DNA from: Argopecten irradians
Lineage: Eukaryota > Mollusca > Bivalvia > Pectinida > Pectinidae
DNA length: 64,000 nucleotides
NCBI RefSeq assembly: GCF_041381155.1
Contig: NC_091134.1
Span: 53,703,944 to 53,767,943, forward strand
Direction: 5' to 3'
The notes below the pieces were generated by a model that was not told where the DNA came from, ran no database searches, and worked only from the letters and a program-made list of their open reading frames with translations. The position numbers were made by a program, and so were the translations under genes. Positions 48,601-51,600 of the stretch are shown here, one piece after another. Positions within the stretch are counted from its first letter, which is position 1. Each line of letters begins with the position of its first letter.

Positions 48601-51600
48601 AATAATATAAAAGGAGGAGGATAAGCAAAAATAAACAGCAATAGAAACACATCAGATAAAACTGAGTTTAGACGGGTGAGGTTTCACTAGATGTATCTAC
48701 ATTTGCTGTTGGTCTGTCTTAAAGGAAAGAGACAAGTTTCACATACAGTATAGCTATACACAACATACTGTAAAGTTAATTTGTAAAAGTTTGTTGCCAC
48801 AAATTAATATCTATATTGATAGGAATTATCATACAAAAGTTAAATCGGCCAATATTAATCTTCGCCAACTTGTTTTGAAATGGAAATCATGAAATTTAAT
48901 AACCATGAAAGACAGTTGGTTTACAGAGTTCTAATCTATTCTTTAGGATACATAGAATATAATGTTAAGTTCCAAGTCAACAATTTTGTTCCAGAAACAC
49001 TGTACAAGCCCTTTAACCTTCAAGAACAGAGAGATATTAAAACAAATTCTATTTATGTCACACATTTTGCAGATGAAAACAACTAAACAGCCGACAGCAG
49101 AGATGGTGAATCTGAGAAAATTAAGGAGCTTAGCTTGGTAAGGTGGGTAGAGAAAGAAGCCTTCTGTTAAGAGTGGTATTTTTTTTTCCACATAATTTAC
49201 CACATTAAAAATCAACATTTTTTCCGTACACAATTCATTTTGATTTTTGCAGATTGCTTTTAAAATTTTACAAAATAATCACATAATTTTTGAATGAATG
49301 TGATTTCAAATGTGACAACTTTTTGTAACATGCTAGCCAGCTCCTCTAGAAAAGTTCCCACATACCATTTCAAAAAGAAGACGGACTAATTTTTCACTTT
49401 CTCCGTGGTACTTGGAGGAGAGAGTAGCAGATGAGACATTAAAGAAAGTAGTCTCACATTCTGTGGCCACTGCCTTAGCTAGCATGGTCTTGCCTGTTCC
49501 GGGCGGACCAACCATCAGCACTCCCTAGCAACGGAAAAACAAAACAAAAGCCATGCAACTCGCGGCAGATTTTAACATATACATTAAGTCTACCAGTTGA
49601 GTTGCAGCACCTATACACAGATGGGTCCCCCCAGGTTAGCTGAACTGCAATACTGATAGACACAGGCTTACCATCTCAAAGAGAAGCTTGACTAACTTCT
49701 CTGATTCGCCCCTGTATTTTGAAGTAAGGGTGGCAGATGACACATTAAAGAATGTGGTGCCACACTCTGTTGCAACAGCCTTGGCCAGCATGGTCTTGCC
49801 CGTCCCCGGGGGACCAACCATTAATACACCCTAGGGAGGAAATCATGTACATACTGTATACCAGGAAATATTCAGCACCATTTTTTGAATGGCCATTACC
49901 ATAGAATGATAAATAACAAATGTTTTACAATGTTTATGTACATATGGATTATTTTAGATATTAAGATCCAAATCTTTTGATAATCATGTTTATATTACAT
50001 CAGGTTTTTGTACAAGATGAAGAGAAAGTTACAGGGAATGATGCATAACTTGGGGTCTGGAGCAGAAATAGATAATAATTGACACATGAATCTGACATTT
50101 AAAGTTAACATTTTTTCTTCGTATCTATAAAACATCAAATTAGATGAAATGTTTTTGAAGAACACATTTTAATATAGTCACAATGAAATACTACATTATA
50201 CCAAAACTGTAAAAAGTTGTATGTATCTGAGCACAAAGAAAAGAGTATCAGTACTTGTATTCAAAACACATTTTCATCATTAAATACTTTTTTTTAGAAA
50301 TAATTTGACAAAATATATAAATATGGTAGAGGTGTATTGAGCACAAAGAGGATTTCTTCTATTTTCAAAAAGGCTTTTGATTAAGTTTAACAGCTTGCTT
50401 TCTGGCAGCAATTCACTAACCCTCCAAGGTCGTCGGATACCCTTGAAGAAGTCTGGAATGATGAGAGGTAATACAACAGCTTCCTGTAGAAGTTTCTTGG
50501 CTTCAACCAAATCTGCCACCTGATCCCTGTAACCACATGGGATCAAGGATTCAAATCAAACCAACTATCAAATTGAGTAAGTAATTTACTGTTACATTAA
50601 AATTTCTTATCAAAACATAGACATCTGTCTCAAAATTTTCATTATAAAATTGACAACTGACAGCTGTCAATTTACAAATCTATTATATTAAACTAGAAAT
50701 ATCTGTAAAACTAGAAACTAGCAATATCAGTTGGACAATATGCTACCTCCTCCAGGATCATGAAAGAATCTTAGACTTAAGTTTGGATCATATATGATAT
50801 AACTGTTTGTAATGTCGTCTTTGATTGGCTAAGACTAATAAATATAATCTTATATAATTAACCCTAGTAGTGCTGAATTGTCTCATATTGGGATAGTACT
50901 GAGTGCTGAATTGTTTGAAAAAAAATAAAAATAAAACCTTTTTTTTTTCTTCATTCTAAAATACCAAGAAGCATCCAAATAATATGTTGGATACATTCAA
51001 TGGTCATTTAAAGGTCGATTTTATGTAAAATGTAGCTCTTTTTATTTCTGTCTGAAAAATGTGGCAAAATTCAGGTAAGAAAACAACAAAGCTTTAGAAA
51101 AAAAAAATTTAATTGTTCTTTGCTTTTAAATATTATTTGTACACATCAGTACATGACCTTCTTCTTTTATTTTGTCAATAAAATCAATCACAACTGATTA
51201 TTGAAAAAGAAATAATGAAAAAAATTAAAATTTTGTTATTCAAGGGAGACAATCTGGACAGCTTTGTCTCGTATCAAATTTACATTAGACTGGTGATTAT
51301 TCTTTTTGAAAACAAATATTTGACAAAATATGAAAATGGGTGATTTAGGAAACAAATAGTAATTATATATTTTAAATATATAAGGTGAAACAATTATTAG
51401 TTATGATTTAACTTGTTCAGTGAAACCAGAGGGGAAGTGTGTGTGTGTGTGTGGGGAGGAGGAGGGGGGAGGGGGGGGGGGCGTTGCAATATGTTGTTGG
51501 TGGTTTTATTGTACATAGAGATTAGAGTTTTCCTGTCTCCAGTTTAAAGTCTTTGGCTCCAGATGAGAAATAAAACTGGAGCATACACATGAGTTATATT

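Follow-up and report, generated by a model that had tools for sequence, protein, structure and literature searches.

Proteins tuned by tandem homologous exons are known, and several such systems are described in papers that are cited here, by PMC number, from partial text. In the scallop muscle myosin heavy chain, MXE cluster 2 is an alternatively spliced P-loop exon (PMC3912159). In OGDH, the adjacent exons 4a and 4b are mutually exclusive, are separated by a short intron and tune the enzyme, and their exclusivity was shown to be enforced by branch points located 25-41 nt from the donor (PMC7969005). More generally, the old tandem exon duplications that have been described carry mostly conservative substitutions, and the resulting isoforms differ only within one homologous segment. 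In the main text of the paper on those duplications, the words katanin, KATN and AAA do not appear, nor do "katanin" and "KATN" appear in the available main text of the human MXE landscape (PMC5740500). No description of paired exons in katanin was found in the literature covered, namely open-licence papers taken without their supplements.

The closest relatives in structure are the solved katanins KATNA1, KATNAL1 and MEI-1 (PDB 5zqm, 6b5c, 6b5d), which share the Walker A and Walker B segments of the gene analysed here and resemble its product end to end over the solved part. In contrast to one of the two isoforms described below, all three lack His in pore loop 1, and within what was searched no paired exon came to light. 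The disease variants of human KATNA1 in the available part of PMC13370650 fall in exons 7, 9, 10 and 11, and Thr256 is the most N-terminal of them; therefore, the Walker A Thr256 of human KATNA1 apparently also lies in exon 7.

The locus described here holds a katanin p60 gene with two adjacent homologous exons, 7a and 7b. We consider it probable, from the genomic sequence, that these exons are used alternatively and give two 503-aa subunits, with KYRG or KYHG in pore loop 1, that differ in grip or severing. The likeness to the scallop myosin P-loop exon (PMC3912159) is that a cytoskeletal ATPase of a mollusc has alternative exons carrying the P-loop and the following helix. The families are unrelated, however, and the myosin exons differ mainly in loop 1, with an effect on ADP release, whereas the main difference of the katanin pair lies in the substrate-gripping pore loop of an AAA+ ring, which is the unusual feature of this locus.

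The katanin p60 gene and its exon pair

The window (the whole stretch of 64,000 nucleotides that was analysed) contains an intact katanin p60 gene on the - strand, from 58439 to 42416, with a product of 503 aa. The predicted exon model was built from the genomic sequence with a KATNAL1 probe and by inspection of splice sites; the numbers of exons 6 to 8 are those of the earlier note on this DNA. The coding features are as follows.

58272..58439, - strand: coding exon with the start codon and the onset of the MIT domain (probe, splice sites and domain scan)
57543..57742, - strand: coding exon with the end of the MIT domain and linker (probe and splice sites)
56727..56913, - strand: coding exon, basic linker (splice sites)
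55300..55400, - strand: coding exon preceding exon 6 (probe and splice sites)
50421..50526, - strand: exon 6, constant, upstream of the pair (donor AGG/GTTAGT, the slash marking the exon end)
49672..49830, - strand: exon 7a, 159 nt, residues 255-307, with Walker A GPPGTGKT and pore loop 1 KYRG
49525..49671, - strand: intron between 7a and 7b, 147 nt
49366..49524, - strand: exon 7b, 159 nt, alternative residues 255-307, with Walker A GPPGTGKT and pore loop 1 KYHG
46917..47043, - strand: exon 8, constant, downstream of the pair, with Walker B IFIDEID (probe and splice sites)
44048..44185, - strand: coding exon after exon 8, arginine-finger region (probe and splice sites)
43041..43167, - strand: coding exon, AAA lid (probe and splice sites)
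42416..42614, - strand: last coding exon, Vps4_C region and stop codon (probe, splice sites and domain scan)

With either 7a or 7b there is one open frame of 503 aa, and all internal junctions are GT/AG. When the 7b isoform was scanned, PF21126 (KATNA1_MIT) was found at residues 9-71 with 95.5 bits relative to a cut-off of 23.1, and PF00004 (AAA), PF17862 (AAA_lid_3) and PF09336 (Vps4_C) scored 135, 50.6 and 43.7 bits, all above the cut-off. The best solved relatives, with the same isoform as query, were human KATNA1 (about 542 bits) and KATNAL1 (524.2 bits). By this full domain set, the predicted product is a katanin p60, an A-type catalytic subunit of the KATNAL1/KATNA1 type, and the identification made in the earlier note is confirmed by the MIT, AAA, lid and Vps4_C domains and by the KATNA1 and KATNAL1 matches. 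A second katanin p60 gene was not recognised among six other AAA loci of the same genome, a result that shows little because the scan, which listed 21 matches, scored only 19 of 159 candidates.

Exons 7a and 7b each have 159 nt, are both of phase 0/0 with AG and GT at their borders, lie 147 nt apart and align with no indel. They differ at 40 of the 159 bases, with 5, 4 and 31 differences at codon positions 1, 2 and 3. Among the 53 codons, 22 are identical, 27 differ silently and 4 replace the residue (from 7a to 7b, G278E, T290S, R294H and K302R in the 503-aa numbering), so that 49 of 53 residues are the same. The coordinates, lengths, phases, 147-nt gap and codon counts given earlier were all reproduced. 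Differences were found at 20 of 29 4-fold sites, the NG86 estimate of dN was 0.088 with dS beyond saturation, and maximum likelihood gave dN 0.044 and dS 13.9, a value that means saturated only. As in the tandem pairs defined in PMC3912159 (partial text), 7a and 7b are adjacent internal exons that are similar in length, frame, splice pattern and sequence.

Residue changes and pore loop 1

The residues at the four changed sites, compared with the three solved katanins, are the following.

Site 278: 7a G, 7b E, KATNAL1 G, KATNA1 K, MEI-1 S
Site 290: 7a T, 7b S, KATNAL1 T, KATNA1 T, MEI-1 S
Site 294: 7a R, 7b H, KATNAL1 R, KATNA1 R, MEI-1 R
Site 302: 7a K, 7b R, KATNAL1 R, KATNA1 R, MEI-1 R

Only at site 294 does 7b leave a residue shared by 7a and all three solved katanins compared. 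The other three sites are variable or conservative among these proteins, and at site 302 it is 7a that departs, with 7b having the residue of all three. The earlier note had also pointed to the 7b sequence TECE as lying beside the nucleotide site, which appears weak: position 278 varies as G, K and S across KATNAL1, KATNA1 and MEI-1, and by the general AAA fold it should presumably sit at the far end of the helix after Walker A. The R-to-H change that the same note placed in the pore-loop-1 motif was found as described, with the X-R-G motif kept in the 7a isoform (KYRG) and lost in the 7b isoform (KYHG).

The X-R-G motif of pore loop 1 has been described as a positive surface that recognises and remodels tubulin (katanin review PMC8369831, partial text). 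Because R294H replaces the arginine of this motif and the other three sites vary or are conservative, any functional difference between the predicted isoforms should sit at R294H; its effect could be small, since Arg to His is a mild change. Residue 294 corresponds to KATNA1 Arg283 when counted from the Walker A Thr256 (PMC13370650), and to Arg267 of the katanin in PMC12076492, apparently C. elegans MEI-1, when counted back from the Walker B Glu293. The available parts of PMC12076492 and PMC7018516 strongly emphasise pore loop 2 too; this loop is encoded outside exon 7 and is identical in both isoforms.

His was not found at site 294 in any of 138 relatives covering the site, in which V, I, Y, L, M or R was seen; these comprised 80 of 80 prokaryotic loci (the best 80 of 366 confirmed) and 58 of 67 viral-collection loci (at least 67 confirmed), all of them distant AAA proteins that carry no information on katanin exons. 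Of the 58 covering loci from the viral collection, 45 have KYRG where katanin pore loop 1 aligns; they are perhaps Clp-type ATPases.

The mechanism that we propose starts from a tandem duplication, long ago, of the exon carrying the P-loop and pore loop, which would have given two interchangeable 53-residue segments. The primary transcript would be spliced from exon 6 to 7a or 7b and on to exon 8, and we infer that both exons are in use, usually one per transcript, so that two 503-aa subunits result, alike in Walker A and with KYRG (7a) or KYHG (7b) in pore loop 1. As His at neutral pH is less charged than Arg, 7b loops would be expected to have a looser hold on the acidic tail, unless the His pKa is raised by that tail, and 7b subunits would contribute less fixed positive charge to the spiral that holds on to the acidic tail of tubulin. 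Hexamers rich in 7b may thus have a different grip or severing, most likely weaker or more conditional, and mixed hexamers would provide graded tuning and not an on/off switch. More speculatively, and less likely than not in our judgement, exon choice and subunit mixing might set the charge of the central pore and thereby grade the grip on acidic tubulin tails, with His making the 7b pore sensitive to pH and to glutamylation of the tail and the enzyme a reader of the tubulin code from its own side, through a single exon.

It is also conceivable, but in our judgement unlikely, that both exons are functional and alternatively used with equivalent isoforms, the pair having been kept for splicing control (signals, stages, tissues) and the four differences being near neutral. 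The identity of 49 of 53 residues fits such equivalence, as do three changes at variable or conservative sites of the solved katanins, and the saturated silent divergence would permit the two exons to carry independent exonic splicing signals. Against it stands R294H, which lies in the substrate-grip motif, at a site where the three solved katanins agree.

Should both exons be in use, 7a and 7b would represent a natural near point-mutant pair of a severing enzyme that has long been kept, identical in Walker A and at 49 of 53 residues, with one pore-loop arginine exchanged. Such a pair would offer a clean natural test of pore-loop-1 charge in severing, and it would show exon choice to be a way of tuning AAA+ ring motors, as it is for molluscan and arthropod myosins. 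The animal can probably make two katanin versions by exon choice.

Splice sites and probable exclusivity of exon choice

The four junctions proposed earlier (50421-49830, 50421-49524, 49672-47043 and 49366-47043) all have GT donors and AG acceptors and preserve the frame. By the donor matrix used, the 7b donor had a score of 3.8, tied fourth of the 10 coding donors of the gene, and the lowest score among the 10 was that of the exon 6 donor. The pyrimidine fraction of the 7b acceptor was 0.76, tied highest of 11 acceptors. The 7b splice sites are equal in quality to those of the other exons of the gene.

Inclusion of both exons would give 556 aa with one terminal stop, and skipping of both would give 450 aa. 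A frameshift-driven loss of double-inclusion products is ruled out, because both of these products stay in frame, and the argument for exclusivity is therefore purely functional: two P-loop segments within one AAA core are not expected to fold, which makes exclusive exon choice likely. In the human MXE survey (PMC5740500, partial text), 377 of 629 clusters (60%) had lengths not divisible by three and 40% had lengths that were divisible, so a frameshift barrier is not required of mutually exclusive exons.

The presence of 7a and 7b together in the mature transcript, with two P-loop/pore-loop segments in the 556-aa protein, is very improbable. The frame would remain open, the 147-nt intron is long enough to be spliced, and we found no clear barrier to the joining of 7a to 7b. 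However, such a protein would contain two sets of Walker A, helix and pore loop in a single AAA core, and both copies match the same single segment of the solved katanins.

In the 147-nt intron, a pyrimidine-rich stretch precedes the 7b acceptor. The one strong branch motif is a CTAAC whose A lies at +36; a second candidate A is found at +88, and AGs occur at +60, +81 and +112 between the +36 motif and the acceptor. CTAAC no more than 60 nt from the donor was also found in 2 of 9 other introns. The +36 A is within the branch-point distance limit of roughly 50 nt from the donor given in PMC7969005 and PMC5740500 (both partial text), but the later AGs and the +88 A make the branch-point evidence ambiguous, in contrast to OGDH, in which enforcement by donor-proximal branch points was shown.

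Intron-intron RNA pairing of the docking/selector type gained no support, as duplexes between the 147-nt intron and 300-nt pieces of two long introns were no stronger than those of 30 first-order Markov shuffles (z -0.02, 0.23 and 1.1). The fold of the intervening intron was nothing unusual (z -0.39; 64 of 200 shuffles were as good), and there were zero Rfam matches at the gathering threshold in 46900-50600. Thus, no exclusivity-enforcing mechanism was found among frameshift, intron pairing, intron fold and branch-point spacing. This is not unusual, since the available text of the human survey attributes 57 of 629 clusters (9%) to potential steric interference and five to U2/U12 incompatibility (PMC5740500).

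Divergence, constraint and neighbouring repeats

The constraint on the pair was evaluated by simulations, which ignore codon and transition bias. Forty random substitutions resulted in a mean of 25.3 residue changes and a minimum of 17 in 2000 simulations, compared to the 4 observed. With human KATNAL1 as the outgroup, three of the four changes are assigned to 7b and one to 7a. For 7b alone, three or fewer residue changes resulted in 29 of 5000 simulations with 10 unconstrained substitutions and in none of 5000 with 15 or 20, whereas five substitutions, with 2009 of 5000, did not discriminate. The saturated synonymous change, the lack of indels and the few replacements indicate that both copies have long been maintained. 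As judged from these comparisons, the duplication is old, both copies are under strong purifying selection and 7b is no decaying exon; this agrees with the earlier note, which had argued for age and selection on both.

That 7b is an unused or dying exon copy is accordingly hard to credit: it has at most three residue changes assignable to it and no stop or indel despite the saturated silent change, so few changes were never obtained with 15 or more unconstrained substitutions, and its splice sites are intact. The possibility that the exon pair is an assembly artefact is negligible. The window does hold a duplication of assembly type with an error-rich end (19716-33769 versus 33816-47193), but at 28028-33769 its pattern is the reverse of that in the exons, with 329 insertion runs and 18 deletion runs, and it ends at 47193, short of the exons, whereas 7a and 7b have 40 substitutions, zero indels, 27 silent changes among 31 changed codons and flanks that do not align as a unit, in line with the earlier view that the pair is not an assembly echo.

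Residue 287 is Ala in both 7a and 7b and Ser in both human proteins, a weak hint that the duplication may postdate the divergence from vertebrates. No trace of a larger duplicated unit aligned between the introns upstream of each exon, nor between those downstream of each, and the best alignment of the 147-nt intron with the neighbouring introns was 15 nt (E 0.62). A 23-nt A/T-rich match in the same orientation (87%, E 0.005) was found between 50095-50117, in the intron before 7a, and 49202-49224, in the intron after 7b; it could be due to chance.

The two copies of the 14-kb tandem block are 92% identical over 14,152 columns. At the right end of the block (28028-33769 versus 42001-47193), the 329 insertion and 18 deletion runs are accompanied by 205 mismatches, a pattern like raw long-read error, and the block resembles an assembly duplication whose end was left unpolished. 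It holds frameshifted echoes of katanin exon 8 and later exons. The intron between 7b and 8 contains an imperfect palindrome of 1.06 kb (47398-48457, 87.7% self-complementary), which may be a fold-back or MITE-type element. Units of about 157 bp are tandemly repeated at 45815-46752, in the intron after exon 8, and also in the duplicated block at 23952-25237, 32452-33308 and 38066-39337. At the left of the window, two further long stretches are self-similar: 1-5569, with shifted copies about 70% alike, and 8389-12302, mostly 84-94% alike at many offsets.
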